From a virus: a stretch of DNA of 64,000 bases. The notes beneath the pieces were generated by a model. It was not told the origin of the DNA, made no database searches, and worked only from the letters and a program-made list of their open reading frames with translations. Of this stretch, positions 576 through 63,157 are shown piece after piece. Location: positions 1 to 64,000 of IMG/VR virus record IMGVR_UViG_3300017752_002639. One strand, 5' to 3'. The number at the start of each line of letters is the position of its first letter. Positions within the stretch are counted from its first letter, which is position 1. The translations under genes were made by a program, and so were the position numbers.

Positions 576-593
576 GAGTATACTTATATGAGC

Positions 594-5245: not shown

Positions 5246-5253
5246 CTAAATAA
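5246..5253 (+). promoter_or_regulatory. Late-type promoter box for the baseplate operon
   Basis: CTAAATAA resembles the core of the T4 late box TATAAATA. Transcription is predicted to begin near 5258, just before a strong AAGGAGA ribosome site (5260-5266) and the ATG at 5273. Similar NNTAAATA boxes recur at the starts of other structural units in the window. Confidence 0.6.
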
Positions 5254-10234: not shown

Positions 10235-10242
10235 GTAAATAC
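10235..10242 (+). promoter_or_regulatory. Late-type box GTAAATAC close to the gp25 start
   Basis: GTAAATAC lies three bases before the gp25 ATG. If it works like a T4 late box, the message would begin at or just after the start codon. It could drive a leaderless transcript, serve a later gene, or be chance. The same arrangement is seen twice at 61796-61814. Confidence 0.35.
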
Positions 10243-10717: not shown

Positions 10718-10724
10718 CTAAATA
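10718..10724 (+). promoter_or_regulatory. Late-type promoter box before gene 6
   Basis: GCTAAATATT contains the late-type TAAATA core. The predicted transcript start is near 10730, followed by an AAGGA ribosome site (10736-10740) and the ATG at 10748. It lies in one of the few clear intergenic gaps of the late block. Confidence 0.55.
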
Positions 10725-29300: not shown

Positions 29301-30024
29301 ATATAACTTTAACAATAATACAGTATTTCCATTAGGTGGACAGTTAGCAACAGTTAACGGCACAGGATTTAGACCTACTGTACAAGCACGTATGCAAAAC
29401 ACAGCAGGCGAAGTAATAGACTTAGCAACTACATATGTAAACGAAACGCAATTTACATTTACAACAGTTGGCATGCCAGTTGGTGCATATGACTTAGTAG
29501 TTTATAATGATGTAGAAACTGTACCGTTACTAAGACCTGCAACAAGTTATGTTGCACCTAAAGCACTTAGGTATGTACAAGTACTATTACCGTTTGCACC
29601 AACACCAAATCCAATTAGTGCAACAGTATGGAACGAAACTAATCAAACAGGTTGGTATAAAGCACCATATGCTAGTGGTGGAATACCAGATGAATACTGG
29701 GAAGCACAAGATATTGAAATATTTGCTAATGGATTACGTCTAAGAAAGAATCCTTTGAAAACATATGATGTTACTAAAGGACAATTTAGCCCAGCAGGCG
29801 ATGTTTGGTTAGAAGCACAATATGCTGTAAACAAAAATGTTGGAGCGTATGTACGCCTAACTGAGCCGCCAGAGCCTAATACTAAGCTAACTATAGTAAG
29901 ACGCCTTGGTAAAATATGGAACGAAGTAATAGATTCAACTACAGGGGCAACAAAACCGCTAGGATCATCAGAAACTGAGGTAGCAACGTTCTTGCGTGGA
30001 AAGAGTATTGATCTACCGCGATAA
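14332..30024 (+). CDS. Giant virion structural protein of 5230 residues
   Basis: One unbroken frame of 15.7 kb, about 0.58 MDa, directly after gene 6, where T4 has gene 7. The N-terminus (about residues 15-150, with YHLPKYFRTDKN and FTNFREYYWLPNGP) looks like large structural proteins of marine T4-like phages. Further on: FG-GAP-like propeller repeats near residues 2120, 2165, 2935, 3050 and 3106; five short aromatic modules resembling CBM5/12 chitin-binding folds near 1435, 1694, 2206, 2846 and 2986; two G-x-GY-x-S/A-P beta repeats near 3646 and 4009; at least six tandem modules of T7-tail-fibre type (DGST-x-F-x-L, V-x-VNG) from about 4105 to 4840; and a TIG-like domain near 5000-5070. It is probably a baseplate wedge or peripheral adhesin scaffold. 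No enzymatic motif was seen. The exact role is inference. Confidence 0.75.
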   Translation: MAQDKDQNEFPLPVGGNQKRTSSYHLPKYFRTDKNQKFLQSTLDQLIQPGVAEKINGFVGRKTAKAFVKDDNYVDDVTAERRDYQLEPVSVIKDDLDNVEFYADYRDYMNQIANFSGIVDDHSKNNKQEFYTWQPHIDWDKFTNFREYYWLPNGPQTVVIPGEDKEITSTYTVNLAEALGDYSYLFTPDGLTNNPVLKLYRGVKYVFEVNTPGLPLTFKTARTLEEEFLITDGISAQSVETGTIELVLGPDAPSEIFYVAENDINVGGVIKVANASEATTIDVDAELIGKKSYTSRDGWTLTNGLKVRFEGEVQPAKYQNSEWYVEGVGDKIQLVSDIDVEVSFPVGIDLVVPFDGEEGFDRLPFGTATGYPRDKDYITINRASPDGNFWSRYNRWYHKDVIELAASINSLDTQIDETQRANRPIIEFNSGLKLYNFGTKSKQVIDLIDDYTTDAFSTIEGSLGYNIDSEQLSEGMRVMFLADTDPLVNGKIFEVKFIKFKGSGTQGQISLVVTDDSEPSPNENVLVTKGTLYAGSLWYYDGTKWNRAQEKTSVNQPPLFDLFDVNGYSFSDLVQYPATTFRGTKIFGYKEGTGTADSVLGFPLTYRSINNVGDILFNFDYNSDNFEYQLNDETYSIESRSGYLRKFNANNQYSVVGRYEKADSLSKQEVILQYVNDGTRITYPINCYNQSAFITDLKTTIFVNDKIQIEGTDYTLVDSADKIKSVNFLYTIASDANIIIKTCTDTPKNENGYYEIAHNLERNPLNENVSGFTLGEVTEHVSTITENIPGYVGTFPGPGNLRDIANQSQYGRKFIKNSSPLNLSMFSLLDRESNIVNAMRYSRKEYSKFKRLFLETAETLGYEGPVKQHVDIIIKEITKDKTNNMPFYFSDMIAHGPSITTRITVEDVDAQFFALNTAFTLEKLNTSAVTVYLNENQLVHNKDYTFNSDGYLKITATKEFNDIIEINEYETTNGSYIPPTPTKLGLYPLYEPALYTDDTYSSSPTMIQGHDGSIIKAYDDFRDNLILELERRIFNNIKIKYDASILDINSYVTGNFRDNGFTRQQIYAPMITDFVQWLTLVDEDYTTHKYFNRLDSFSFNYKNMRGPNNTVLPGWWRGAYNYMYDTDRPHTHPWEMLGFSIQPTWWEEQYGPAPYTAENKLLWEDIEKGIIREPNKPFIINKKYARAGLYNYLPVDIDGNLLSPSNANLPINYDSTGIDDSFVFGDNGPVESAWRRSSDYPFAILTSWMINNSPALLSAGFDRSRQVRNTLGQLIYTESGDHLTLDKIVFPNTPNDSKQVLTSGLVNYVADYMASNITASFKQYGTRIQSIKNMLGFKLGGFTDKSKFKLILDSRTPLNKGNVFIPEENYNIILNTSSAIKLVNYSGVIIEKQTGGFIVRGYSEETPAFKYHRALPTAKDVYVNVGGVSEPYTEWQAQQTYIEGKNVQFQNVFYKVIKTHTASANFDAEKFAKIPQIPISGGSDAYFRDQFDTRNVELMPYGTELKTIQEVVDFLLGYQSFLKLEGFNFEYYDGDESVISDWKNSCREFMFWSTQNWAEGAIISLSPVADEINFSTEYSVVDNIFDNFFGYSLLKSDGTKLTDNFTRISRTDPNKLQVQPRNTSDGVYAIRLPIVQKEHIILIDNLSVFGDVIYQPSTGYRQERIKVLGYKTSDWDGSLNIPGFIYNEAKVKQWAQWTDYDIGALIKYKEFYYSSNAQIAGSETFDDSHWTRLSSKPESSMTTNFEYKTNQFTDFYSLDTDNFDVDQQQLAQHLIGYQKRQYLENIINDEVSQYKFYQGMIQDKGTRNSLDKLFDVLSSADKESLDFYEEWAIKQGQYGASEGFDELEIELDELKYRAEPQPIHLSNDDTANTDLVYRIKDFEIFKKPNNYTTNVLPTVDKVPNFTKTPGFVHLDDVSLSVGKYNDILDQQFTSIPKDSYVWVSTQKQSWNVLQHKSTQWKALSVKGNATAISTGTDEANQSTVTLSNAPTDIKAGDIIGLYDLIVTDKTTDDSTFPIATQTTEPVEGFYKVLAVALNQVVIETKEVIEDIISCNGIITKFIPVRVADFQSANVLSQNGVDKGTRIWIDEDENGDWIVLENTQPFNLLQKIPAEDTGVNNNFGQSLAIDGRNVTMALASPTADGNGKIFTYTRGGQNQNFQFTQLIEPADNISSGGMSFGEGVAISADGKYIVAGSPDAGQVKSKFKGNYSTTADYENTEVVKYGDSLWEAVVDIDGAKSEQPFGSFGSIIEVIQDNNITSGEIVFNSLLAGNYPFTDVPDETTGHILVRAPKDAYVATGPGDTVFMDWYLTTSANQDAPTTPRQPFNGTFATITEEFLERGLPIVKKVDAVLYINSVSTIPGDTLQVDTVGASGYVSYTYSEGGRATVYVTGSVGTWPVSGSLFLETGEFVGEFQRVAPVEESVDTSNDLGGYWWFDTDDQYTVAPTNSDEGRALAIYNVIPAGKADSGGTGGNVIDNKNDDIFAGETSQHSYIRTLSYVGTPGAYGQLDPFESDLFVMRAPKTLTDSVTVGDTIGVEVYRLPAYADGSFVDISTIGLSHLQTNKDHELVALWDGYIDFELEEGDNFNRFEPKVGQFVRDRVTGATAKVEFYQRNSIYATIFVSNVVGTWQLGSKYGEASDIEMLGNPNDPDLTYRVTRTLGDIKATALGNDTYNIGKLCVFRLGGVVSPVPDTVERGDFDFHAASDIIDAEYIIYKDTQILGLPTNPNIPDQINFDWKERFSLPVDANGVANDYDNFGFFTVYARESISTFTPVGSFIFPETINGLGIGSKIKMAKRNDLYKTFIGCRGNGTTANPGKIFFVNKGTDEEGIEYNWELAKDKRFKGEFAPERNYYVNDIVFLDGEFYTAKTNVQGNPTTPDDPEAQFNILDWNLSTNDNIRSVDFLGYVPNDTQYVPGNDSSLQLSTTDLIEFGQEFDVTDNGEVLAVVAKYANEPSRVIVYRNQNDNYQKSQEIVDPRYGDTEYKGNWAINTAYAVNDIVLWGESDVDVYNPSVTEVLREYICVTAHTSGTEIGSDVNKWIEFDRTEFAKTVSISQDGKLIAIGAPNGDTTIAESGKIYIYKQVNSTFELSQTLVSANPIRGEYFGGELDFDGNTLFASAFNSASDDVTNFDGFKNRLYPGSTTPGKQYLLDTDSEIVSPTTFDNKFTTFQNKIASNGVVYVYEKINDTLVFGQTLDYNVADAKFFGRNITAQNNHIYMSLPKFNNADGKQGLVLDFNKDISNKVWKEHRTPSLPVDVSKIKRVMLYDKEKNVIVTNLDYIAVSQGKIAGTADEEIRYKTFFDPATYNTGINTDIRINELTNWGEKQVGQVWWDLTDAKFYDTTQGSIIYKTNNNNKIAPGGSIDVYEWVESTVTPEQWDKISSQPEGERNGITGTSKYGNNGYVEKRIYDKIAQKFDKLYYFWVKGKTNAPNVENRSMSIQTITSLIEDPNGSGYKFVSFYDNGEMSIHNCKNLVNNKDVVLSIQYWTFSEPGSNIHNQYQILTEGLGTSVPYAEIENKWIDSLVGYDKQSRPVPDTNLSPRERYGILNKPRQGWFINRTEALKQLVERVNNVFIDNLIEEEKNLVKLQDTDPAPSQTLGLFDVTVDTEIDLQFIGVARATTAQITPVVENGKIVRLEINNPGRGYRVAPSYTIEGSGSGAEFEFTLDNLGKITTATVIEQGNNYGSNTFITVRPFAALVTADSAINGKWALFNRNATTSNWIRINSQAYDVTKFWNYVDWYATGYNAFTEIDYVITQSYELESLDDKFGDVVKILNIGGAGWLLLEKINDLDTTDYTVNYKTIGKQNGTIQLSQNLYNLQNSRVGFDTQTFDTQFFDSQPVEEIRIIMQALKQDILTDDLQDEYNKLFFAGLRYVFAEQGYVDWAFKTSFVKAKHNVGNLTQRVTFKNDSLESYEDYIQEVKPYTTTIREYLSTYDNVERSSSVITDFDSPPSYDNTSTTIETNNIRLINGLLTGDSGDRFANYPERYWLENASYEIIDIEISDAGEGYVSAPKIEIEGNAKAEASLGPGGKISSVKVLNSGSNYLTSPTITINGAKNDNGRDARLSAVLGKSKVRTMHTKIKFDRVSGTFFITQLNELETFSATGSKTEFTLKWPMDMRTNTVEVTVDGELVLNSEYSYQNVYDADTKLNYGKISFVNPPANTLTVQVTYKKAIDLLDAQDRVNLFYNPTSGQIGNDISQLMTGVDYGGVEVKSFEFGSPPGWDTGDWYNGAWDIYDDLFEEELFQTDGSTLVFTLSKPLENGVKYNVYINGIRVDDEEYDGTSSVNNKNAFMETLVGDGIVDTLTIENENGYRNFLETQTDGQDNPPAQIIKIIKSTSDGARLIDSESYDTDISGGDLAYTTAKGIKAEEINIDGDGFVTETTSSGPEETIPGQVLDTLDITVFERPVGGSSLIQTTSYTGDGVTTTFNLRQRPYSFESVILKVNGAVPATNTYKIDYKNSEIIFYVAPAVDDKLDIISMGVSGNNILDYDEFTTDGSTQEFLTNVDYSDNVHAYVTVNGEELPFQLLESDESYAIANRCVIRFVQAPIADKLIQFAIFDNSIESFSKVSLEEITADGSSIAYQLNKVPLQQDPIAYHTIIMIDNKVLNAGYSEQFIVEESQQEFKLKVWQVPIASVSGNEIEVFLNGRKLQFLQEWTYEGAGSFNPAVNADAQPGSTVILNRGVAVAGDELKVHIITSGEYQFGYYDSSDEWVDTAGGDSTPAVVYFDEAPAENSTIRVYQFTNHDSQGIDRQNYDIVQRTAMTVGSEGYNEYRLLTNGLFNLRSEAVSTDYVWISLNGRWLVPTADYVLLENKKTIKLITTVYKDDVVDVIHFSNPPVSIKYGWRQFKDILNKNVYKRLDKDGFYQLAEDLNWYDRTITVIDKDNGNLPTPTKSKPGIVFIGKERIEYLRKEGNVLKQLRRGTAGTSIAQIHSSGTELVNQSLETSMPYKDTEEVVINFSGNYVDMSTKYDNDGGITVDGIAYNFNNNTVFPLGGQLATVNGTGFRPTVQARMQNTAGEVIDLATTYVNETQFTFTTVGMPVGAYDLVVYNDVETVPLLRPATSYVAPKALRYVQVLLPFAPTPNPISATVWNETNQTGWYKAPYASGGIPDEYWEAQDIEIFANGLRLRKNPLKTYDVTKGQFSPAGDVWLEAQYAVNKNVGAYVRLTEPPEPNTKLTIVRRLGKIWNEVIDSTTGATKPLGSSETEVATFLRGKSIDLPR

Positions 30025-30027
30025 ATA
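30020..30027 (+). promoter_or_regulatory. Late-type promoter box GATAAATA
   Basis: The box overlaps the stop codon of the giant gene. The predicted transcript start is near 30033, then an AGGAA ribosome site and the ATG at 30046. It fits the late-box family of the window and gives the tail-fibre group its own promoter. Confidence 0.6.
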
Positions 30028-34706: not shown

Positions 34707-36230
34707 ATGGCATATACAATTGATACATATAGTAATAGTACATCTTGGAAAATTGAAGATGGGACTATTGATCAAACCACCGATTTAAAGCTAGTTGGTA
34801 AAAACTATGCTGGATACGGTGAGATACAAAACGAAAACTTTGTTTTCTTACTAGAAAACTTTGCAGGGCAGGCAGAGCCGCCACGTAAAATACAAGGTCA
34901 AATATGGTTTGACACTGGTAATAGTAAATTAAAGTTTTATGACGGAATTAAATGGCGCACAACAGGTGGCGCAGAAGTTAGCACAACAGTTCCAACAGGT
35001 CTTAAAGAAGGTGACTTTTGGTGGGATCAAAATAACGAGCAACTTTATACATACAATGGCGGAGACTTTGTACTTATCGGACCCCAAAGTGCAGGATCAG
35101 GCCAGACACAAATTGTAAGTCGCTCATTACGTGATACAGGTGGTACGACAAGAGGCGTTATCACAGCAGTTGTAAATGATGAAACAGTATTTGTTACTAG
35201 TTCACAAGACTTTACAATTGATACGGCTGATGTTGATAGTAACATTCCAGGATTTGATAGAATACGTCAAGGTATTACACTAAAGAACACTTTAAATAGT
35301 TCCGGCGGTGTTACATCAGGCGATTGGAGAATTGTTGGTACAGCAACAAATGCTGAGAAATTAGGCGGAGCGGCAGCCAGTGAGTATGTAAAAAATCAAA
35401 CAGCAAACTTTGCAGGACTTGCACGTTTTAGTGACACAGGTTTACAAGTTGGCGATGACGGTGACTTGAAACTTAAAGTTGAATTAGACAACAAAGCAGT
35501 TATTGCAAACGAAAACGGATTACAAATTGAATTCCGTGCTAAAAATTCATTAGGTACTATACTAAACCCAATGAGAATATTTGCAGATGCAGTTATTCCA
35601 GGGTTCCAAGTTGGTACAGAATCAGCACCAGGTGGGCCAGTAGTTGGTACATCAACATTAGGTTCTGTAGATTATCCGTGGCCAAACGTATTTGCAAACA
35701 ATGTAACTGGTTTAGCAAGTATAGCTTCATCGTTAAACGTAGGTGCATACGATCCAGTTAATCCATTAGCAAATGCAAAATATCCATCAACAGCAGACGC
35801 GGCAAATACTATTGCAGTTAGAGATGCCGCAGGCGATATTTACGCAAATAAATTTCAAGGTGTTGCAACTGAAGCTCAATATGCTGACTTAGCAGAAAAA
35901 TATACTACTGATAAAGAATATCCAGTAGGTACAGCAATGTGTGTAGGCGGAGATGCTGAAACAACAGCGGCTAAGACAAGTAGTATTAGTATTGGTGTTA
36001 TATCAGAAGCTCCTGCGTACTTAATGAACAAAGATTTAGAAGGGCAAGCAATTGGTCTTAAAGGTCGTGTTCCAGTAAGAGTAAAAGGCCCAGTGAAAAA
36101 AGGTCAACCAGTGTATGCATGGGAAGATGGTGTTTGTTCTACAGTAGCAACTACATCAATCGTAGGTGTTGCACTAGTTACTAATGACGCTGAAGAAGAG
36201 AAATTAGTTGAGTGCGTTTTAAAGGTATAA
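34707..36230 (+). CDS. Tail fibre protein with C-terminal peptidase-G2-like domain
   Basis: A 507-residue fibre, third copy of the shared N-terminal module (IEDGTIDQTTDLKLVGKN, ENFVFLLENF, GQIWFDT). The C-terminal 120 residues (ADLAEKYTTDKEYPVGTAM, then VGVISEAPAYLMN near residue 430, and KGRVPVRVKGPVKKGQPV) resemble the domain found at the ends of phage fibres and related to the intramolecular chaperone/peptidase-G2 type. This may assist trimer folding and may be cut off afterwards. I cannot point to a catalytic residue with certainty. It is the shortest of the three paralogues. Confidence 0.78.
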   Translation: MAYTIDTYSNSTSWKIEDGTIDQTTDLKLVGKNYAGYGEIQNENFVFLLENFAGQAEPPRKIQGQIWFDTGNSKLKFYDGIKWRTTGGAEVSTTVPTGLKEGDFWWDQNNEQLYTYNGGDFVLIGPQSAGSGQTQIVSRSLRDTGGTTRGVITAVVNDETVFVTSSQDFTIDTADVDSNIPGFDRIRQGITLKNTLNSSGGVTSGDWRIVGTATNAEKLGGAAASEYVKNQTANFAGLARFSDTGLQVGDDGDLKLKVELDNKAVIANENGLQIEFRAKNSLGTILNPMRIFADAVIPGFQVGTESAPGGPVVGTSTLGSVDYPWPNVFANNVTGLASIASSLNVGAYDPVNPLANAKYPSTADAANTIAVRDAAGDIYANKFQGVATEAQYADLAEKYTTDKEYPVGTAMCVGGDAETTAAKTSSISIGVISEAPAYLMNKDLEGQAIGLKGRVPVRVKGPVKKGQPVYAWEDGVCSTVATTSIVGVALVTNDAEEEKLVECVLKV

Positions 36231-36233
36231 ATA
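36226..36233 (+). promoter_or_regulatory. Late promoter box TATAAATA, exact T4 consensus
   Basis: TATAAATA overlaps the stop codon of the third fibre gene. The predicted start is near 36239, then AGGAAG about 36249 and the ATG at 36263. This perfect match supports reading the other NNTAAATA boxes as late promoters used with gp55. Confidence 0.72.
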
Positions 36234-49961: not shown

Positions 49962-49973
49962 AGGCTGTATAAT
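49945..49973 (+). promoter_or_regulatory. Perfect-consensus sigma70-type promoter inside the island
   Basis: TTGACA (49945-49950), 17 bases, TATAAT (49968-49973). Both hexamers equal the consensus and the spacing is ideal. The predicted start is at or next to the ATG at 49980, which would give a leaderless message for that gene and a fresh transcript for the downstream radical SAM genes. Its -35 overlaps the end of the preceding gene. Confidence 0.75.
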
Positions 49974-49979
49974 ATATAA

Positions 49980-52222: not shown

Positions 52223-53294
52223 TTTTAGCGACTTAGAAAATATACATTTAGAAATTACAAATCGCTGTCAGGCAAGTTGTCCAATGTGTAGTAGAAATTA
52301 TCACGGCGGATTAGAAAACCCTCTTATCAAAAACAAAGACTGGACATTACAAGACTTTCAAAATATACTAACAAAAGAAGTGTTGGATCAATTAAAAGGA
52401 TTTTATTTCTGTGGCAACTTTGGTGATCCTATTATTAATGATGAATTAATTGAAATGGTTGAATATGCCGCAACAGTTAATCCTAACTTAAATATTAGAA
52501 TACACACAAACGGAAGTGCAAGAAACACAGACTGGTGGGCAAGACTTGCAAAAGCATTACCTGTAACGCATAACGTTATTTTTGCTATTGACGGATTAGA
52601 AGATACACACAAATTATATCGTATAGGTACTAGTTACAAAAAAATATTACAAAATGCTACAGCATTTATTGAAGCAGGCGGCACAGCGGAATGGTGCTTT
52701 ATAAAATTTAAACATAACGAACATCAAGTAGAAGAAGCACGTACTATTGCAGAGCAAATGGGCTTTAGTTTATTTGTTGAAAAGAATAGTAGTAGATTTA
52801 TAGGAACACCAGAATTTCCTGTATACGATAAAAATGGTGCAACTACACATTACTTGGAGCCACCTAGCAGTAGTGAACTTGCATTTATTACAGAAGATAT
52901 GGTTGCTAATTACAAAGACATTTTAAACAATGCAGAAATAGATTGCTATGTGTTGCAAACTAAAGAAGTATACATTGATGCATATAAGAAAATATTTCCG
53001 TGTTGTTTCTTAGCAAGTACACCGTACAACTATGCAAAAACAAATGATGTTACAGCACCAATAAGAAATCACATGCACGAACAATACCTAGACTTAATAG
53101 AAAATTTAGGTAATACTAATGCACTTGAAGTTTCTTTAAAACAAGTAATTGATTCTACACCTTGGCAAACAGTGTGGAAAGATTACTGGGGCAAAAATAA
53201 GCTAATTACATGTGCAAGAACATGTGGTAAAGTAAAAGAATTACCTAAACCAAAAGATCAATTTATTAGAGTAGTGGGATTAAACAATGAGTAA
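52215..53294 (+). CDS. Radical SAM protein with C-terminal SPASM-like region
   Basis: A 359-residue protein. The radical SAM motif CQASCPMC is at residues 18-25, very near the N-terminus. An IHTNGS strand lies near residue 96. The C-terminal half has C-Y-V-L-Q-T-K-E, an IDAYKKIFPCCFLAS segment near residue 255 and a final ITCARTCG. This is a SPASM-type arrangement, most like the protein at 48978. The usual GGEP element is changed to CGNFGDPI. The gene overlaps both neighbours by eight bases. Substrate unknown. Confidence 0.83.
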   Translation: MFSFSDLENIHLEITNRCQASCPMCSRNYHGGLENPLIKNKDWTLQDFQNILTKEVLDQLKGFYFCGNFGDPIINDELIEMVEYAATVNPNLNIRIHTNGSARNTDWWARLAKALPVTHNVIFAIDGLEDTHKLYRIGTSYKKILQNATAFIEAGGTAEWCFIKFKHNEHQVEEARTIAEQMGFSLFVEKNSSRFIGTPEFPVYDKNGATTHYLEPPSSSELAFITEDMVANYKDILNNAEIDCYVLQTKEVYIDAYKKIFPCCFLASTPYNYAKTNDVTAPIRNHMHEQYLDLIENLGNTNALEVSLKQVIDSTPWQTVWKDYWGKNKLITCARTCGKVKELPKPKDQFIRVVGLNNE

Positions 53295-54702
53295 ATGGTG
53301 GTATAACGATAAAGACAGTGAGCTAGGCAAGTATCAACGAGAACTAGAAAGCGTTGCAAAAAGTCCTACGTTTTGTGTTCTACCTTGGATACACTTTGCT
53401 ACTAGACCTAATGGCGATATGCGTTTATGTTGTTCGTCTAATGCAAGTGGTGCTGGCGGAGACCATACAGTTGGACTTGTTAAAATGGAGGATGGTAAGC
53501 CAGCAAACTTTGGCAGAGAAACTCCAATGGAAGCATGGAATAACGACTACATGAAAAGTGTACGTACAACTATGCTTAATGGACAAATACCTGCAAGTTG
53601 TACTAAATGCTTTGAAGAAGAAAAAGTAGGAGTAGTAAGTAAGCGTATATGGGAAAGTGGTACCTGGCATAGAGACGATGATGGTGTAGACATTCCTTAT
53701 TTGATTGAACAAACACAAGCAGACGGAACAGTACCGGAAGAGTTAGTATACTTAGATCTACGTTTAGGACATACTTGCAATATTAAATGTGTGATGTGTA
53801 GTCCACATGATAGCAGTAAGTGGGTAGCAGATCACAAAAAACTTATTCCTGTATTACAAGACCCTGATGTTAAAAGACAAATGCAATGGGATAAAAGTGA
53901 GTTCAATAATAAATGGCATGAAAAAGATACGTTCTGGGAAGAAATGTATGCACAGATACCTAATCTAAAACAAGTATATTTTGCAGGCGGTGAGCCTCTA
54001 ATGATCAAAGAACATAAAATGTTTATTGAAGAAATTATTAGACAAGGCTATCAAGACAAAATATTGTTACGTTACAATTCAAATGGACTATTAGTAGACG
54101 AAGATCTAATTGAGTTATGGTCAAAGTTTAAAAAAGTAAAGTTTGCTATTAGTATGGATGCTAGTCACGGACGTGATGAATACATACGTTTTCCTACAAA
54201 CTTTGAAACTGTAGAAAAAACTTTGCATATGCTTGACAACACACCTGACAACATACAAACAAGTTTAGCAACAGCAATACAAATATTCAACGTAAAGCAT
54301 TTACCAGACTTTATGAAATGGAAACTAGAAAGCGGATTTAAAAAATTAAATAGCGGTACAGTGCCTGGTGGTGTGCAAATGGGCGGTGGCTTAGTTAATA
54401 TGCACTTGTTGTATATTCCAACTTTCCTTAGTATACAAATACTACCAGAACACGACAAACAAGAAGTTAAAGAACGTTTTATGGACTTTAAAGATTACTT
54501 GTGGAACAACTATAGACAAGATGATGACTTTTGGAAAGTTAATCCTTATGGCTGGAAACGTTGGGAAGCTGTAATGAATCATATGAATGCACAAGACAAC
54601 AGTCATTTACTTCCGGGCTTTAAAGAGTACACAAACAAATTAGATGCAATTCGTAATTTAAATGCGGCCAAAGTATTTCCAGAGCTTGCTCACTTGTTAT
54701 GA
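53287..54702 (+). CDS. Radical SAM protein with N-terminal twitch/SPASM-like domain (group B)
   Basis: A 471-residue protein of the same type as that at 45929. The N-terminal domain has FCVLPWIHFATRPNG (C30), CC at 48-49, ETPMEAWNNDYMKSVR, and CTKC at 105-108. The radical SAM motif CNIKCVMC is at residues 164-171, with FAGGEPLMI near residue 235 and a RYNSNGL strand. The C-terminal 150 residues contain many aromatic residues and no extra cysteine cluster. The start overlaps the preceding stop by eight bases (ATGAGTAA). The enzyme class is secure; the substrate is unknown. Confidence 0.86.
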   Translation: MSKWWYNDKDSELGKYQRELESVAKSPTFCVLPWIHFATRPNGDMRLCCSSNASGAGGDHTVGLVKMEDGKPANFGRETPMEAWNNDYMKSVRTTMLNGQIPASCTKCFEEEKVGVVSKRIWESGTWHRDDDGVDIPYLIEQTQADGTVPEELVYLDLRLGHTCNIKCVMCSPHDSSKWVADHKKLIPVLQDPDVKRQMQWDKSEFNNKWHEKDTFWEEMYAQIPNLKQVYFAGGEPLMIKEHKMFIEEIIRQGYQDKILLRYNSNGLLVDEDLIELWSKFKKVKFAISMDASHGRDEYIRFPTNFETVEKTLHMLDNTPDNIQTSLATAIQIFNVKHLPDFMKWKLESGFKKLNSGTVPGGVQMGGGLVNMHLLYIPTFLSIQILPEHDKQEVKERFMDFKDYLWNNYRQDDDFWKVNPYGWKRWEAVMNHMNAQDNSHLLPGFKEYTNKLDAIRNLNAAKVFPELAHLL

Positions 54703-55649
54703 TTAATCGTATTGAAAACAATCAAGATCCTGATATGGTGCGTATTGAATATATGCCGGGTAACACCTGTAACCATAAATGTCATTATTGTTTTCCAGGA
54801 AGTAACGAAGGCGACCAAGGTTGGCCAGACGTTGATATAGTAAAACAAAATTTATCACATCTATTAACACATTATGAAAACAATGGCAAGCCTAAAAGCA
54901 ACTTATACATTGTAGGCGGCGAGCCTACATTATGGAAGGGCTTAGAAGAACTTTGTCAGTATTTAAAAAGCAAACATAATATTATTATTGAAATGAGTAC
55001 AAACGGTACTCGCAAACTTAATTGGTGGAAAAACAATGCAAAGAATTTTGACCATGTTGAAGTTAGTGTACACAGAGAGTTTGCTAATCTTGATCATTTA
55101 ATAACAGTATGCGATACATTGTATGACTTAGGCATATTTGTTAATGCTGACGTTTTAATAGACCCAGATGACTTTGAACAAAGTGTGGCTAATCTTGAAT
55201 ATCTAAAAACACACTGTAAAAACAAATGGCCTATTATTGCAAAAATAGTTCATTTTAATGGTCGACATAGATATACTGATACGCAACTAACATACTTTGA
55301 AAATGTAATTAAACAATATCCTACACAAGAATGGTTTGATACTACTAATAAAAAACCTCTTAGAAACATAAAGATACATTCAGACGATAACATTATTACT
55401 GTAAACAACGACAACTATTTAATTGCAAATAATTTAAATAAGTTTCAAGGATGGACTTGTAACTTAGGTGTAGACTTTATAAAAATATTTCCAGATGGAA
55501 GAATTACAGGAAACTGTCAACAAAAACTATTTGGTAATTTACACGATGATAATTTTACACAAACATATAGTCCTGTGATTGAGCCATTAATATGTAATAG
55601 ACAACTATGTGTATGCAGTGAAGAAACGGTGATAGCAAAACATGCCTGA
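54699..55649 (+). CDS. Radical SAM protein (group C), C-terminal cysteine cluster
   Basis: A 316-residue protein. The radical SAM motif CNHKCHYC is at residues 24-31, with IVGGEPTLWK near residue 70 and an STNGTRK strand near 101. A single conserved HREFAN segment matches the H-A-E-F-A-N segment of the protein at 50626. The C-terminus has GWTCNLGVD, IFPDGRITGNCQQKLFGNL, and a final C-N-R-Q-L-C-V-C group, fitting a short SPASM-like domain. It overlaps its neighbours by four and eight bases. The class is secure; the function in the pathway is unknown. Confidence 0.84.
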   Translation: MINRIENNQDPDMVRIEYMPGNTCNHKCHYCFPGSNEGDQGWPDVDIVKQNLSHLLTHYENNGKPKSNLYIVGGEPTLWKGLEELCQYLKSKHNIIIEMSTNGTRKLNWWKNNAKNFDHVEVSVHREFANLDHLITVCDTLYDLGIFVNADVLIDPDDFEQSVANLEYLKTHCKNKWPIIAKIVHFNGRHRYTDTQLTYFENVIKQYPTQEWFDTTNKKPLRNIKIHSDDNIITVNNDNYLIANNLNKFQGWTCNLGVDFIKIFPDGRITGNCQQKLFGNLHDDNFTQTYSPVIEPLICNRQLCVCSEETVIAKHA

Positions 55650-56694
55650 CTTTAATACATTAGAACCAGCTAACGATTCTTACTTTTCTGTTGAATGGGA
55701 AACTACATTAAAATGTAACCTTGATTGTAGTTATTGCGGAGACGGACATGACAACAGTTTGCCACATCCTAGTTTAGCATCAAGTTTAGACACAGTTGAT
55801 TTTATTTTTGATTATACTAATGAGCAACTAAAACAAAAACCTAAACATCTACAACATGCTAATTTAAATATTTTTGGTGGTGAAAGTTTTTTCCATCCTA
55901 AAATTATAAACATATTACAATATGCACAGAACAAAAAACAATATTATGATTGGACTATAAGTATAAGCACTATTACTAATGCAGTTGTAAAAGAAAAGTT
56001 ATGGCATAGAATTACAGATTTTGTAGATTATTTTACAGTTAGTTTTCATGCAGAAAGCACAGAAAAACAACAACTACTGATGCGTAATAATATCTTATAC
56101 TTACAGAAGATAGGTAAGCCTTTGCATGTTAGTATAATGATGCATCCTAAGCATTGGCAATCTTGTATGGACATGGTATACTGGTGTATAGAAAATGAAG
56201 TATCTTATAACAAGCGTCAAATAGATCATGATATGTTTGACTTTCGTTTTAACTACAGCAAAGAACAAACACAATTTCTTACTGGACATGTTCCAAGCAC
56301 AATAGAAAAAATAGGTGGTCTAATTGCAAAAGGAATAGATTTGTCAAGTAGTGGCAGAGCATGTTGCGGCAACAAAACAATGTGTACAAATACATGTGAT
56401 AGCACTAACTATATTAAAGGTAATAATTTTAAAGGGTGGAATTGTAGTGTAGATAGATTCTTTTTATATATCAAACAAAATACAGGCGAAGTGTTTACTA
56501 ATAAAGATTGTAAAATGAACTATAATGGCGAGGTAGGCCCGATAGGTTACTTGTCAGATACAAAATCTATTATGGATAATATTAATTCGTCAACTATTAT
56601 CTGTAAAAAGAAAAGTTGCTGGTGTGGGCTATGTGCGCCTAAAGCAGAACATAAAAAAGATTATGATAGGATTATGCTAAAGTATGTTGACTAA
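55642..56694 (+). CDS. Radical SAM protein (group C), C-terminal cysteine cluster
   Basis: A 350-residue protein. The radical SAM motif CNLDCSYC is at residues 25-32, with the core element NIFGGESFFHP near residue 75. The usual GGEP is GGES here, so the SAM-contact loop differs. The C-terminal region has CCGNKTMCTNTC, GWNCSVDRFFLYI, a K-D-C-K-M segment, and C-K-K-K-S-C-W-C-G-L-C-APKAE. This is one of the most cysteine-rich tails in the island and similar to the minus-strand protein at 57876. Function unknown. Confidence 0.83.
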   Translation: MPDFNTLEPANDSYFSVEWETTLKCNLDCSYCGDGHDNSLPHPSLASSLDTVDFIFDYTNEQLKQKPKHLQHANLNIFGGESFFHPKIINILQYAQNKKQYYDWTISISTITNAVVKEKLWHRITDFVDYFTVSFHAESTEKQQLLMRNNILYLQKIGKPLHVSIMMHPKHWQSCMDMVYWCIENEVSYNKRQIDHDMFDFRFNYSKEQTQFLTGHVPSTIEKIGGLIAKGIDLSSSGRACCGNKTMCTNTCDSTNYIKGNNFKGWNCSVDRFFLYIKQNTGEVFTNKDCKMNYNGEVGPIGYLSDTKSIMDNINSSTIICKKKSCWCGLCAPKAEHKKDYDRIMLKYVD

Positions 56695-57895
56695 ACTAGC
56701 CCTTGGTCCTAGCATGTGTACTGCTAAATGGACTAACAGTACAATACATCTCGGCATTGGCAAAACACACAGTTGTCATCATCCACATCCTCATACAATA
56801 CCCCTGCACGAAATAGAAAACAATCCGTCAGCAATACACAATACACAACATAAAAAACAAGTTAGAAAGCAGATGCTTGAAGGTACATGTCCTAGTGAAT
56901 GTAACTATTGTTGGAATGCTGAGTCTAACGGTACCGTAGGCGATCGTGTACTAATGAGTAAAAAAGATGGCTTGTTAGAATTATTAAAAATTAAAAACAC
57001 AGCATGGGATCAAGATTACGATCCAACTTATTTAGAAGTATCCTTTTCAAACGTGTGTAACTTTGCGTGTGCATATTGCGGTCCTGAATACAGTAGCAAA
57101 TGGCATAGTGAAATAAAGCAAAAGTCTTATCCTAACAACTATAACGGAATACACTTAGAACAAATATTAGACAAAGATCATAATCCTTACATAGAAGCCT
57201 TTTGGAATTACTTGCCTACTATATATAATAAATTACGTGTACTGCGTATTACAGGCGGTGAGCCTTTAATGAGTAGACATACTGAAAAACTTATAAACTA
57301 TATTATAAAAAATCCAAACAAAAACCTTACAGTAATTATCAACAGTAATTTAGGAATTACAGATAAACTGTTTAACAAGCATATAAACTTTTTAGTTGAT
57401 GCAAAGTCTTGCGTTAAAAAGATTGAAATTGCAACTAGTGGTGAAGGATATGGTGCTAAAGCAGAATACGTTAGAGATGGATTAGATTATAACAAGTGGA
57501 GAACCAACTGCGACAGAGTAGCAAAAGATTTGAATTTATCTATTATGTCAGCTTATAATATTTTTAGTGTAACAACGTTTGATAAATTTTTAGAAGATGT
57601 TAAAGATATAAAAAATGTAACACTTAGTGTTAGTGCAGTAAGAGATCCAAGTTTTATGAGTGCATCAGTTATGCCTAAAGAATGGATGAGTCATTTACAT
57701 AGGCAACAAAAATACATTGCTAAACACTTTTCAAAAGAAACACAACAGCGTTTTGAACAAGTCGTAGCTCATGCATCTGTTCCTAATAATAATTTAAACG
57801 AACTAGTTGCATTTGTGAAAGAATACGACTTACGCCGTAAAAAATCATTTATTAAAGTTTTTCCTGAATATGAGTTTATAACTCAACAGTTGTAA
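56684..57895 (+). CDS. Radical SAM protein with N-terminal twitch/SPASM-like domain (group A)
   Basis: A 403-residue third member of group A. C12, C31, C73 and C76 keep exactly the spacing of the proteins at 41780 and 43146, with the same CHHP and IPLHEIENNPSAIHN elements. The radical SAM motif CNFACAYC is at residues 125-132, with ITGGEPLMS near residue 190. The C-terminus has YDLRRKKSFIKVFPE. It is the last plus-strand gene of the run, and its final 20 bases are also coding on the minus strand. The N-terminus is shorter than in the other two group A members. Confidence 0.85.
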   Translation: MLTKLALGPSMCTAKWTNSTIHLGIGKTHSCHHPHPHTIPLHEIENNPSAIHNTQHKKQVRKQMLEGTCPSECNYCWNAESNGTVGDRVLMSKKDGLLELLKIKNTAWDQDYDPTYLEVSFSNVCNFACAYCGPEYSSKWHSEIKQKSYPNNYNGIHLEQILDKDHNPYIEAFWNYLPTIYNKLRVLRITGGEPLMSRHTEKLINYIIKNPNKNLTVIINSNLGITDKLFNKHINFLVDAKSCVKKIEIATSGEGYGAKAEYVRDGLDYNKWRTNCDRVAKDLNLSIMSAYNIFSVTTFDKFLEDVKDIKNVTLSVSAVRDPSFMSASVMPKEWMSHLHRQQKYIAKHFSKETQQRFEQVVAHASVPNNNLNELVAFVKEYDLRRKKSFIKVFPEYEFITQQL

Positions 57896-58958
57896 TTGTA
57901 TTCCAGGTTTGTTTGAAAACATCAAAGTTTTTTGCTTTAGGAATACACATGCCGCAACCACATCTTGCGTTGGGGCAAACAATCGCTTTGTTTACGTTTA
58001 TTTCATTTAAAATTTTCTCACTGTTATTTAGATTGCCAATAGCACCTATAGTTCCGTCTTTACGTGCTTGGCATGTTTGGTGGTGATACACATCACCTGT
58101 TTCCTGATCTATATGTAAGAAGAACCAATCTACCATACAGTTCCAACCTTTAAATTTGTTTTCAACTAATTTTACTGGTTGCCAATTATCTTCAACTAGT
58201 CCTTCTAAGCAACGCCCGCCACAACATTTGCGACCAACGTCTGTACCTTCAGTAGGACGTTTTGCTTTGTCTACTATACCAACTTCATTCCAAAACCATT
58301 CTTGTTGTTCCTCAGTATACTCATGACTTGTTCTGCGCATAACTCCATCGGAGTCTTCGAACCATCCTTTAAATGCAACAGTACCATCTCCAATTGGAAC
58401 AGGGTTATATGCAATACCATGTTCTTTAAAAAATGCACATACTTCTTTTGCTTCTTCAAAGTAATCACAATGTAACATAACATTAATTTGTAACCAAATA
58501 CCACGTTCTTTTACCTTTAGTGCATTTTGTAGTACTCTATCTTTTAACTTTTGATGTGCTTCAGCATGCCAGCTAATAGTGATGCCGTCAATGTATTCAG
58601 CAATTTTATCAATGTCTTTTTCAGGCCATGTACCGTTTGTAGTAAGTCCTACATTATAACCTTCGTGTTCTTTAATGTATTTTACTATATCCCAAAACTG
58701 TGGATTAACAGTAGGCTCTCCTCCTGTGAAATCAATATTAACATGTTGACGATTTTTCTTATGTGAGTCATACTTGTTAGTATATGATTGTATAAAATTA
58801 AATGTATCTTTTAACTTGTCTAGTTTAGCATGTGGGCTAGTATTGTTATGTCTACTTGCTTCACAGTAAGTACAGTCGTAATTACAACGTCTTCCTAGAT
58901 CCCAAGTAACCATCATTGGTTCAGGATTAGTTAAATTTATTGCTGTAGTTTGTATCAT
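57876..58958 (-). CDS. Radical SAM protein (group C), C-terminal cysteine cluster
   Basis: A 360-residue protein on the minus strand. The radical SAM motif CNYDCTYC is at residues 25-32, with FTGGEPTVNP near residue 75 and a TTNGTWPE strand near 106. The C-terminal part has KCCGGRCLEG, GWNCMVDWFFLHIDQETGD, a CQARKDG segment and CPNARCGCGMCIPKAK. That tail is close to the plus-strand protein at 55642, so the two are paralogues on opposite strands. The start overlaps the preceding stop by four bases. Function unknown. Confidence 0.84.
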   Translation of the reverse strand: MIQTTAINLTNPEPMMVTWDLGRRCNYDCTYCEASRHNNTSPHAKLDKLKDTFNFIQSYTNKYDSHKKNRQHVNIDFTGGEPTVNPQFWDIVKYIKEHEGYNVGLTTNGTWPEKDIDKIAEYIDGITISWHAEAHQKLKDRVLQNALKVKERGIWLQINVMLHCDYFEEAKEVCAFFKEHGIAYNPVPIGDGTVAFKGWFEDSDGVMRRTSHEYTEEQQEWFWNEVGIVDKAKRPTEGTDVGRKCCGGRCLEGLVEDNWQPVKLVENKFKGWNCMVDWFFLHIDQETGDVYHHQTCQARKDGTIGAIGNLNNSEKILNEINVNKAIVCPNARCGCGMCIPKAKNFDVFKQTWNTITTVEL

Positions 58959-59860
58959 TCTTTAACCTTTGTAAGAGGAATATCTGCGGCACAAGTACAC
59001 CATTTACGTGTACATATAATTGCTTGTTCTGGTATTTCAAAGTCACCTTGATATATGTTTCCTAAACTACCGCCTACTCTACACGTAGCACGATGAACAT
59101 CACCGTCCCAATTAATCATTAGGCTTTCTAATCCTGCATTACATTTCCAACCTTCGAATTGATTCCTGTGTGTTTTTATCAAGTCGTTTGCATGTATTAG
59201 TTCTTGATCGTTTACAATAACATTAGGTTTAGCAGTTGCAACAGAGTCTAATAACCATTTTAAATCTTTAGAATCATATTTCAAATCATCAAACCAATCA
59301 CGGTTCTCTGCTTCAGTCCAACGTATGCGTCTAACTACATAAGGTATGTTATGACTGTCAAATAATGTAGCACAGCGTTTTACTCTATCCATGTGTGCAT
59401 GGTGTGCCATTAAATTAACTTGAAAAGGAATTTGTGTGTTGGCGTCATTTAGTTGTGTCCAAAGTAACACATTTTCAGCACAGCGTTCCCAGTTTTTATC
59501 ATCTTCAACATGCAAACTAAACACATAATGATCGACTGGTAGCTTGTCATAGAATGAAGGAGATAATGTACCATTGGTAGTAATGTTTAACCAGTCTAGT
59601 CTTTGTTTAATGTGTTCACAAATTTCTAATATGTTAGGATGCACACAAGGCTCGCCACCTGTAAGACTTACACGAACTGGCTTACCTATTTCATACAATG
59701 CATCAACTGCATCTAACATTACCTTAACATTGGTATGTGGACTAAAATTATCGTGTATTTCGGCAGGACAATACGTGCAATCTAAGTTACACCTTTTGCC
59801 TATATTCCATTCTACTTTAACTGAGTCTTGATGATCCCAGCGACTTGTTACGCTATACAT
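58955..59860 (-). CDS. Radical SAM protein (group C), C-terminal cysteine cluster
   Basis: A 301-residue protein from the ATG at 59860. A TTG three codons earlier is open, but the ATG gives the eight-base overlap ATGTATAG with the preceding gene, as at many island junctions. The radical SAM motif CNLDCTYC is at residues 24-31, with LTGGEPCVHP near residue 65 and an ITTNGT strand near 93. The C-terminus has GWKCNAGLESLMI, then VHRATCRVGGSLGNIYQ and C-T-R-K-W-C-T-C. It is the shortest radical SAM protein of the island. Function unknown. Confidence 0.84.
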   Translation of the reverse strand: MYSVTSRWDHQDSVKVEWNIGKRCNLDCTYCPAEIHDNFSPHTNVKVMLDAVDALYEIGKPVRVSLTGGEPCVHPNILEICEHIKQRLDWLNITTNGTLSPSFYDKLPVDHYVFSLHVEDDKNWERCAENVLLWTQLNDANTQIPFQVNLMAHHAHMDRVKRCATLFDSHNIPYVVRRIRWTEAENRDWFDDLKYDSKDLKWLLDSVATAKPNVIVNDQELIHANDLIKTHRNQFEGWKCNAGLESLMINWDGDVHRATCRVGGSLGNIYQGDFEIPEQAIICTRKWCTCAADIPLTKVKE

Positions 59861-61118
59861 AAGGAGCAAACTCTGGGTTAGATGTAAGGAAGTCTTGATT
59901 ACGTGTTTTATCTAAACGCTTGTTAAACTCTATACAGTCTTGCCAATGTGTTTTGTACATACACTTTGCTTCTAAGAAATTTATGTTGTCTTGTATTTGT
60001 TGTAGAGTTACTGTCTTTAGTAACTCGTGTTCTTTTACTAAAGGATAATCTAACACAGTTTCTTTCATTGCTTCTAATTTAGCAATAACTTGTTCCTTTA
60101 GTTCAGGCGGCAGTACTTGTGCTGATAGCGACATAGGATAATTTACTCTATGTGAATAAAATATAATTCCCATTGTATTAATAAAGTAATCAATTACTTT
60201 GTCTATTTGCATAATGTTGTTTGCTTGTACAGTAAATGCACCTACTACTCTACTTACATTAGGAAAGCTCTTAAACACTTTAATGTTTTCTTCTATTTCA
60301 GCAAACTTACCATTGCCTCTAATGTATTCATATGTGTCGTGTATGCCGTCTATGCTTACGTTTACAGCAATGCTTTTAAACTTAGGCCAATAGTCGTGTA
60401 TTGTTCTTCCGCCTTTAATACCTAGCGTAGTACCGTTTGTAGCGTACTTTAGTTCTATGTTGTCACCATACTCTGCAAGTTTATCTAGTATCTTATAATG
60501 GTATGGATCCATTAGCGGCTCACCACCTGCAAATTCTACACGTCTAAAGAACGGTAGTAGCTTTTCAAAACTTGCCCACCAGTTATCTGAGTTATCAAAC
60601 GGTCCAATATATTGCCCTGGTTTGTCTACTAGTGCATCAACAGTTGGTATAAGATAATTGTTTTCTTTCTTGTAAAATTCTGTTACTTGATCCCAATCTT
60701 TCCAGCTTGTACTGTCCAAAGGATTACACATACGACACTTTAAATTACACAAGTTATTGAGCTTAATTTCCATTGTAGGAAACTCAAAAGGCATGCTGTA
60801 ATCGTCGTCTAAAGCGTCTAATGCATCAGGGTATAAGTTGACCCTAGCTTCAGGTATTACCCCTGCTGTATGACGCTGTCGTAAGCTCTGTACACCCTGA
60901 TCTTCAAGGTCAAAGCACGGTTTACATACATCAGGACGTTCGTCATTTAGTACTTGTCTACGCACTTCTTTCATAGCATCGTTGTTCCATGCTTCTTCCA
61001 AAGTTTCTTTTTGTATCCAACCAATAGGTTGACTGCGACAGCATACTTTGATAGCACCATCTTCTCTTGTAGCCAATCCTGTAAACGGATGCATACAAAA
61101 TGTACAACTCTTATGCAT
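59853..61118 (-). CDS. Radical SAM protein with N-terminal twitch/SPASM-like domain (group B)
   Basis: A 421-residue protein, third member of group B. The N-terminal domain has C5, C8, CC at 26-27 in GAIKVCCRS, a TLEEAWNNDAMKEVRRQVL helix, and CKPC (65-68). The radical SAM motif CNLKCRMC is at residues 124-131, with FAGGEPLMDP near residue 195 and a YATNGT strand near 225. The start overlaps the preceding PP-loop gene by eight bases (ATGCATAA). The pairing of a PP-loop ATPase with this enzyme in one operon suggests linked steps. Substrate unknown. Confidence 0.86.
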   Translation of the reverse strand: MHKSCTFCMHPFTGLATREDGAIKVCCRSQPIGWIQKETLEEAWNNDAMKEVRRQVLNDERPDVCKPCFDLEDQGVQSLRQRHTAGVIPEARVNLYPDALDALDDDYSMPFEFPTMEIKLNNLCNLKCRMCNPLDSTSWKDWDQVTEFYKKENNYLIPTVDALVDKPGQYIGPFDNSDNWWASFEKLLPFFRRVEFAGGEPLMDPYHYKILDKLAEYGDNIELKYATNGTTLGIKGGRTIHDYWPKFKSIAVNVSIDGIHDTYEYIRGNGKFAEIEENIKVFKSFPNVSRVVGAFTVQANNIMQIDKVIDYFINTMGIIFYSHRVNYPMSLSAQVLPPELKEQVIAKLEAMKETVLDYPLVKEHELLKTVTLQQIQDNINFLEAKCMYKTHWQDCIEFNKRLDKTRNQDFLTSNPEFAPYV

Positions 61119-61791: not shown

Positions 61792-61795
61792 ACAA

Positions 61796-61814
61796 GTATT
61801 TACTCGGTAAATAC
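61796..61814. promoter_or_regulatory. Palindromic divergent late-type boxes between two genes
   Basis: GTATTTAC (61796-61803), TCG, GTAAATAC (61807-61814): a perfect 8-base inverted repeat with a 3-base centre. Each arm is a TAAATAC box pointing outward, and each ends four bases before an ATG (61791 minus, 61819 plus). With T4 late spacing, transcription would begin exactly at each A of ATG. No ribosome-binding site fits between box and start. It may be a shared divergent promoter, an operator, or both. Confidence 0.55.
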
Positions 61815-61818
61815 GTAT

Positions 61819-62481
61819 ATGCTAGTTGAAACTGAACATACTGTATCTATCAATGACATTGACGCAATAGACTTAACAACTATTGATAAAATGAAAACGC
61901 CAATAAATGAGCCATCGGGATCATTCTTTTATGATGAATGGAATATAAAAGAAGAATATAAAGATACTCCTTGGGCTACATTATTAAACACATTACCATT
62001 TGCAGTGGGCGAAGCTAGAGTAATATCTTTAGAAAGTAAAACTTGCTATACTAAACATACTGACATTGATGATAGATACCATTTAAATATTTTTGGTGAC
62101 GAAGGTTATCTTATTGATTTACAAGATTCACATATGTATAAAACAGAGTGTGATGGTAAATGGTATGTAATGGATGCTAGTAAAGCCCACACTGCCGCAA
62201 ATTTTGGTCAGTATCGTCGTGTGCAGTTAGTAGTTAGAAAACTATTACAACGTGTAAATTTAAAAGATCCTATTGATGTGTCAATTATTCCAGGCGGCGA
62301 TAATCCTAGATATACATTTGACAACACACTAAGTCCTTGGTTAAACAAAAAACTTAAAGATAAAACTATTACTGATTTTGAAAGATCTGATAGTGGTGTA
62401 AATTTTAAAATGGAACGTGTATTGCTAGACCAATTTGAAAATATACTACCTAAAGACTTTAATGCTAGTCTATATAGATAG
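61819..62481 (+). CDS. Fe(II)/2-oxoglutarate oxygenase-like (AspH-type) protein
   Basis: A 220-residue protein with a jelly-roll look. The central region has YTKHTDIDDRYHLNI with an H-x-D metal motif (H80, D82), then YLIDL and KWYVMDASKAHTAANFGQYRR, with a distal His at about 124 and Arg at 133-134. This H-x-D...H...R order is that of Fe(II)/2-oxoglutarate-dependent oxygenases of the aspartyl/asparaginyl hydroxylase type. It could hydroxylate a peptide or small molecule. It is read away from the PP-loop/radical SAM operon, sharing the palindromic region. The oxygenase call is moderate. Confidence 0.6.
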   Translation: MLVETEHTVSINDIDAIDLTTIDKMKTPINEPSGSFFYDEWNIKEEYKDTPWATLLNTLPFAVGEARVISLESKTCYTKHTDIDDRYHLNIFGDEGYLIDLQDSHMYKTECDGKWYVMDASKAHTAANFGQYRRVQLVVRKLLQRVNLKDPIDVSIIPGGDNPRYTFDNTLSPWLNKKLKDKTITDFERSDSGVNFKMERVLLDQFENILPKDFNASLYR

Positions 62482-63157
62482 CCTTTGCTTTTTCCATTGT
62501 ATCTGTGCTAAAGTTATTTTTAAAACTATCAAAACATAAGCCCTGTAGTTTGTCTAACGGTTGAACAGCATTAACATCAATACCCATGCTTTCCATTGCA
62601 GGTATTAATACACTTTGCCTATCTTCACTTATATGACTCATAACGTCCATTGGCGTAAATCCTTGTTCTTCTGAGCTATATGTAAAAAAGTAATTTATGC
62701 TTTTTAATGTTCCGTCAACTATAAAGTAACTACTTGGATGCATACTAAACTTGTACAATCCTAAATCCTTGTGTGCTTGTATAATTTCAAGCATTTGATC
62801 TTCCCAGTCGGGTAATACATGCGAATAGTCAGTACCTTTACATCCTGCTAGTTCCCACATGTCAGGACCGTCTATTTCTAAGTAGACCTTTCGAAACTCA
62901 TAGTCAATTTCAAATGCTGGTACGTGTTGCGGATACTCCTCACGCATTAGTCTAAGATATTTTATTTCACGTTCAAACTTTTCATCCATCAAGTCTACAT
63001 CAACAACTTGATTATGTCCTCCGTGATAACCTTCATCGTTATGATACCATTGACAAAACTGTTGTTTGTCATCACTAATAAGACTAGTGTATATTAGGTT
63101 GTTTCTACATAATCCTTTTTCAGGAACATTATTATAGTAGTAATTCATTTTTTTCAT
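62465..63157 (-). CDS. Unknown protein with possible kinase-like fold
   Basis: A 230-residue protein. DEKFEREIKYLRLMRE (about residues 57-72) looks like the Glu-bearing helix of a kinase-like fold, VYLEIDGPDMWELAG (about 91-105) like a hinge region, and LYKFSMHPSSYFIVDGTLKSINY (about 133-155) sits where kinases have the H-P-x-N-x-x catalytic loop followed by a strand. The catalytic Asp is missing from the loop, and D-F-G is not seen. So it may be a pseudokinase or chance likeness. It overlaps the gene before by up to 26 bases and the convergent plus-strand gene by 17. Confidence 0.45.
   Translation of the reverse strand: MKKMNYYYNNVPEKGLCRNNLIYTSLISDDKQQFCQWYHNDEGYHGGHNQVVDVDLMDEKFEREIKYLRLMREEYPQHVPAFEIDYEFRKVYLEIDGPDMWELAGCKGTDYSHVLPDWEDQMLEIIQAHKDLGLYKFSMHPSSYFIVDGTLKSINYFFTYSSEEQGFTPMDVMSHISEDRQSVLIPAMESMGIDVNAVQPLDKLQGLCFDSFKNNFSTDTMEKAKAIYID

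Follow-up and report, generated by a model that had tools for sequence, protein, structure and literature searches.

A probable bidirectional late promoter with predicted leaderless messages in a marine T4-type phage

A perfect inverted repeat, GTATTTAC-TCG-GTAAATAC, was found at positions 61796-61814 of the window (the whole 64-kb stretch of DNA analysed here, out of a 79-kb virus record), and it very probably forms a compact bidirectional late promoter, in which two T4-type late promoters give leaderless messages in both directions. The symmetry is two-fold around a 3-bp centre, with two outward-facing late-type boxes. The repeat is flanked by ATG start codons at 61791 (-) and 61819 (+), with 27 bp between the starts. 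Between each arm and its ATG lie four bases (61792-61795 and 61815-61818), as the earlier note had described. The TAAATA cores are 5 bp apart, and the distance from TAAATA to ATG is 5 nt on both sides. A TATAAATA-like box with the core TAAATA is present on both strands (61797-61802 and 61808-61813), with GG (+) and AG (-), not TA, at positions -13/-12. Neither a sigma-70 -35/-10 pair nor a terminator candidate was found at 61796-61814, and the site resembles the T4 late type in having no -35 element. More generally, we consider it likely that marine T4-type phages of heterotrophic bacteria have a distinct class of late promoter fused to the start codon, which gives leaderless late mRNAs and is often arranged back-to-back in a gap of 27-28 bp.

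Table 1 Features of the window discussed in the text.
Feature	Position	Strand	Remarks
Late promoter core TAAATA (predicted), QueC-like gene	61797..61802	-	5 nt upstream of ATG; spacing matched in about 15 relatives of the gene
Late promoter core TAAATA (predicted), Asp/Asn-hydroxylase-like gene	61808..61813	+	5 nt upstream of ATG
Predicted transcription start (leaderless), A of ATG	61791	-	T at -1; from T4 register and class statistics
Predicted transcription start (leaderless), A of ATG	61819	+	T at -1; from T4 register and class statistics
QueC-like PP-loop ATPase, 226 aa	61111..61791	-	PF06508 2e-5, phrog_1550 1e-8; SGGADS motif at residues 17-22
Aspartyl/asparaginyl hydroxylase-like protein, 220 aa	61819..62481	+	PF05118 4e-5; ends against convergent gene 62465-63157
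Three radical-SAM genes (59853-61118, 58955-59869, 57876-58958)	57876..61118	-	Head-to-tail overlaps, downstream of QueC-like gene
Late-transcription sigma factor (gp55-like), 276 aa	4362..5192	-	phrog_12791 2e-76; also phrog_234
Third 5-nt late-type box in the window, TAAGTA	581..586	-	Before GIY-YIG gene 126-575 (-), without Shine-Dalgarno
TAAATA before gp25 (10246-10695)	10236..10241	+	4 nt from ATG; other spacing class
TAAATA-type box with conventional leader and Shine-Dalgarno	5247..5252	+	Before structural gene 5273
TAAATA-type box with leader and Shine-Dalgarno	10719..10724	+	Before baseplate gene 10748
TAAATA-type box with leader and Shine-Dalgarno	30022..30027	+	Before gene 30046
TATAAATA box with leader and Shine-Dalgarno	36228..36233	+	Before gene 36263

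Besides structural genes of the T4 type, the window carries recombination-nuclease genes and a gp55-family late sigma factor. This sigma factor is 46% identical to the homologues of PA5oct/MIJ3, the closest named phages being PA5oct-type jumbo phages, and shows only distant kinship to T4 gp55. The start of the QueC-like gene is firmly placed because of the position of its SGGADS motif. Its N-terminus is also conserved, and over the first 25 codons the relatives differ from the window mostly at codon position 3, which supports this placement. The N-terminus of the hydroxylase-like protein (M-[LI]-x-x-T) is likewise conserved in relatives. The overlaps of the three radical-SAM genes suggest that they and the QueC-like gene probably share one transcript from the leftward promoter. 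Positions 41780-61118 of the window hold an unusually dense series of radical-SAM genes and genes that look related to them, distributed over the two strands; three minus-strand ones were matched against Pfam.

The spacing between box and start codon was analysed in 139 relative loci plus the window, a sample of 2.05 Mb in which about two dozen virus records were represented by longer stretches. An ATG-first ORF caller yielded 1,413 genes in 388 clusters. TAARTA lay exactly 5 nt before the ATG in 82 of the 1,413 genes, which represent 70 distinct N-termini and 35 unrelated protein clusters. The background was a mean of 2.7 clusters per other spacing, giving a Poisson probability of about 1e-26 for the 35 clusters observed at 5 nt. 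The gene counts are partly dependent because relatives share ancestry, and the cluster count is the robust one. At 4 nt there were 12 clusters, and the distribution had a second hump at 17-20 nt and a third near 29 nt, which correspond to leadered genes. A gene-caller artefact is unlikely, since TAA as a stop codon would favour gaps of 3, 6, and 9 nt, not 5 nt.

Genes of the 5-nt class also differed from other genes around the start codon. A Shine-Dalgarno motif at -17 to -4 was present in 0 of 70 genes at 5 nt and 1 of 21 at 4 nt, compared with 77 of 123 (63%) at 14-34 nt and 348 of 985 elsewhere. The base at -1 was a pyrimidine in 66 of 70 genes of the 5-nt class (94%; T in 79%) and in 34 of its 35 clusters, against 446 of 985 (45%) elsewhere (Fisher 2e-17). 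Bacterial transcripts usually initiate at a step from a pyrimidine (-1) to A (+1), which makes the A of the ATG the likely first base of the message in the 5-nt class. Part of the pyrimidine signal may be translational, since a U in this position can also promote the initiation of translation. In the leadered class, positions +5/+6 after the box showed only a weak initiator context, and the predicted start register is therefore based on T4 and the leaderless class. The 5-nt spacing, the absence of Shine-Dalgarno motifs, and the pyrimidine at -1 fit late mRNAs that would start without a leader at the A of the ATG. The earlier note had proposed two late boxes with both messages leaderless, and this proposal gains support from comparative evidence: the spacing in 35 families, the Shine-Dalgarno and -1 counts, and the late sigma gene. 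Its expectation that both messages would start at the A of ATG under T4 spacing agrees with the T4 register, in which the last A of the box is at -6.

We propose that host RNA polymerase, equipped with the phage-encoded gp55-like sigma, would use the TAAATA of each arm (positions -11 to -6 of TATAAATA) as a T4-type late promoter core and transcribe outward from it. After opening the AT-rich DNA, it would initiate at the purine 6 nt past the box, namely the A of the ATG. The two mRNAs would have neither leader nor Shine-Dalgarno and would be translated by ribosomes binding the 5'-terminal AUG. With the cores only 5 bp apart, the site would accommodate one polymerase at a time, so that the two genes would share one late-acting site. 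The leftward message would probably comprise the QueC-like gene and the three radical-SAM genes, and the rightward message the hydroxylase-like gene.

A -35 element is absent from T4 late promoters, whose box (-13 to -6) is placed roughly one turn ahead of the start (PMC2988020). The site at 61796-61814 resembles these gp55/gp33/gp45-dependent promoters in its core box, its lack of a -35 element, the AT-rich DNA downstream, and the presence of a phage late sigma. However, T4 genes have leaders with Shine-Dalgarno sites and boxes 12-29 nt from the ATG, whereas both messages at 61796-61814 are predicted to be leaderless. The divergent T4 late genes 26 and 51 have overlapping boxes between them, TATTTATAAATA, with leaders and Shine-Dalgarno sites. 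Back-to-back late boxes thus have a T4 precedent, but leaderless starts have none in T4, where 0 of 246 ORFs had boxes 4-6 nt before the ATG. In cyanophages, NATAAATA is the late promoter motif, as in S-PM2 (PMC2984593). The same core is found in these marine T4-like phages, but 0 of 242 S-PM2 ORFs had boxes at 4-6 nt, and P-SSM2 had three cases among 142, all weak, in the 120 kb of genome examined. PA5oct had 2 of 406.

In bidirectional bacterial promoters, both strands use a single sigma-70 -10 element, and the starts are usually separated by 18 bp (Warman/Grainger; PMC10268837, PMC12825309). As in those promoters, one short symmetrical site at 61796-61814 would serve both strands, with polymerases predicted to be mutually exclusive; however, it has two separate boxes, and the predicted starts are 28 bp apart. 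Leaderless mRNAs are known from alpha-proteobacteria, with 171 leaderless starts in Sinorhizobium meliloti (PMC3616915). Like the messages predicted here, they start at the A of the AUG without a Shine-Dalgarno site, but they belong to host genes and host sigma factors, whereas here a phage late-promoter class would be involved. Searches of an open-access library, which does not cover subscription papers, turned up no account of late promoters of this leaderless kind in T4-type phages, and the back-to-back leaderless design, which is recurrent in relatives, is apparently undescribed.

Among cultured SAR11 phages, HTVC008M and Mosig have the 5-nt class, and Melnitz probably has it too. In HTVC008M, 11 called genes had the box at 5 nt, none at 4 nt, and three at 6 nt, and most of the 5-nt starts match the deposited start codons. 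The divergent pair gp2 (DNA end protector)/gp4 (head closure) at 18916/18943 has a double box, and both are virion genes. The other 5-nt genes include those for baseplate tube-cap (19456), baseplate wedge (31132), tail completion (75830), and adenylate-cyclase (11972). Since several of these are virion genes, late timing of the class is supported. Mosig had five genes at 5 nt, including a gp2 homologue and an Asp/Arg hydroxylase, and Melnitz had three. No gene with a box at 4-6 nt was found in the 120 kb of Ochrobactrum phage OC examined, and Sinorhizobium phiM7 and Caulobacter Cr30 gave no match to the box pattern, leaving a link with alpha-proteobacterial hosts in general unsupported. A ribosomal protein S21 gene is present in HTVC008M, Mosig, Melnitz, and PA5oct; however, we do not claim a link between S21 and leaderless starts, since a 282-kb relative (G030) has the class without S21. 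A late-type box also lies 4-5 nt before the ATG of CHASE2/adenylate-cyclase genes of different lineages (L118:3235-5289, HTVC008M 11972-13807, and Melnitz about 54825), two of them identified by Pfam or annotation and the Melnitz gene by length and N-terminus only.

The gene content of the HTVC008M class bears on the possibility that both genes are driven by sigma-70 type early promoters that resemble TAAATA by chance. TAAATA does resemble a -10 hexamer, and good sigma-70 promoters are found elsewhere in the genome, such as TTGACA-17-TATAAT before gene 49980. However, the repeat holds no -35/-10 pair, and in HTVC008M the class lies in front of late-expressed virion genes, making early promoters a very unlikely source of the two messages.

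Sixty viral loci contained the QueC-like gene, and TAAATA or TAAGTA lay at exactly 5 nt before its ATG in nearly all loci of >74% identity. Where the divergent hydroxylase-like gene was present, its own box was usually also at 4-5 nt. No match to the locus was found in named phages in DNA-level and protein-level searches. A DNA-pattern search for hydroxylase-like relatives found none, though loci around the QueC-like gene contain a hydroxylase-like gene. For the same gene pair, the distance between the boxes was 5, 17, 18-19, or 32 bp, while the spacing of each box from its own ATG was kept. The L002/L007/L013 group has the box of the hydroxylase-like gene 32 nt away, and a Shine-Dalgarno sequence, GGCAGGA, appears in the new leader. 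This change, like that at the leadered L058 pair (see below), is a natural swap between the two arrangements within a gene family and speaks for the late-promoter reading. The earlier note had suggested checking whether the repeat is conserved; the boxes and their distance to the start are kept among relatives and the palindrome is not, which counts against an operator but not against promoters.

Outward-facing box pairs were also compared across the sample, in which the window and its relatives had 26 divergent double-box pairs. Gaps of 4-5 bp formed a peak (24 of 122 outward-facing pairs in relatives over gaps of 0-45 bp), with further peaks at 17 and 32 bp. Both sides are leaderless by spacing at 61796-61814, at a second pair of the same genome, and in L004, L020, L047, and L084; one side is leaderless in L002, L007, L015, L006, and L010; and both sides are leadered in L058 and L068/L079, the gap-5 pair of L058 having Shine-Dalgarno sites on both. 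The second pair lies just beyond the window at record positions 65008-65039 (L062:5008-5039), 3.2 kb from the first, with boxes 4 bp apart and each 5 nt from an ATG. Since the pairs may be leaderless, mixed, or leadered, this geometry is a property of the proposed bidirectional promoter and not merely of packing between starts. Distance classes of 4-5, 17-20, and 32 bp were also seen across different gene pairs (e.g., L006:5959-6006, L001:5944-6004, L032:5926-5970).

These comparisons make it very unlikely that the palindrome is an operator for a dimeric regulator, of phage or host origin, acting on both genes as repressor or activator; an operator for a dimeric protein was the alternative given in the earlier note. 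The perfect two-fold symmetry with its 3-bp centre, and the preference for gaps of 4-5 bp between cores even at some leadered pairs, would suit a dimer. However, an operator would require a fixed distance between the arms, and we rejected this reading because that distance varies within the same gene pair while each box stays fixed to its own ATG. Moreover, single, non-divergent genes have one 5-nt box without a second arm. The bare palindrome is itself at chance level: perfect inverted repeats of 8 bp with a loop of 0-10 number 27 in the AT-rich window and 17-36 in ten dinucleotide shuffles. The palindrome was therefore rejected as a signal in itself. The meaning of 61796-61814 lies in its position relative to the two ATGs, its non-chance feature being that both ATGs have a late-type box precisely 5 nt away, and the mirror-image sequence is a by-product of the promoter design.

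The same core occurs elsewhere in the window with both short and long spacings (Table 1). TAAATAC was found 14 times in the window against 27 expected, and TATAAATA twice against 13 expected, so both are rarer than expected; with just two occurrences, TATAAATA was rejected as the sole late motif. The earlier note placed the gp25 box at the same distance as those of the repeat, which is off by one, since TAAATAC at 10236-10242 leaves three bases before the ATG at 10246, compared with four. Homologues of gp25 in L098, L075, and L076 also have TAAATA 4 nt before the ATG. In this 4-nt class, transcription could start one base inside the codon or be shifted by one, and we kept it separate from the 5-nt class because its -1 base signal is weaker.

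The occurrence of leadered boxes also bears on a reading of the box as a translation-initiation element, an AU-rich enhancer on a longer mRNA started elsewhere. We regard this as highly improbable, even though the fixed distance to the ATG, the absence of Shine-Dalgarno sites from the 5-nt genes, and the possible help of U at -1 to the initiator tRNA would all agree with it. The same box lies 17-33 nt upstream of virion genes with a Shine-Dalgarno site in between, and a promoter further upstream would need to sit within the coding region of the partner gene. In addition, the box is identical to the core of the T4 late consensus, and a late sigma factor gene is present in the phage. Finally, chance occurrence of AT-rich sequence between two close starts, with which the palindrome count agrees, is a negligible explanation, as it is refuted statistically by the spacing across 35 families, the Shine-Dalgarno depletion, and the pyrimidine at -1.

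In the usual picture, a T4-type phage gene has a leader and a Shine-Dalgarno site. If the recurrent leaderless late class proposed here is real, part of the late programme in abundant ocean phages, including virion genes of HTVC008M, would bypass Shine-Dalgarno recognition, giving a Shine-Dalgarno-independent route of late translation. It would also provide a late-promoter rule for pelagimyophages, for which the published prediction of middle and late promoters was unsuccessful (PMC7029224). The leaderless late class can be tested in cultured phage-host pairs.

Two further features of the window were observed. The near-perfect sigma-70 promoter at 49935-49980 (TTGACA-N17-TATAAT) lies directly 5' of gene 49980, within a long run of plus-strand genes, and is likely an early promoter. 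Positions 14332-30024 of this 79-kb phage fragment form a single open frame of 5,230 codons, which would encode a very large structural or adhesin-like protein.
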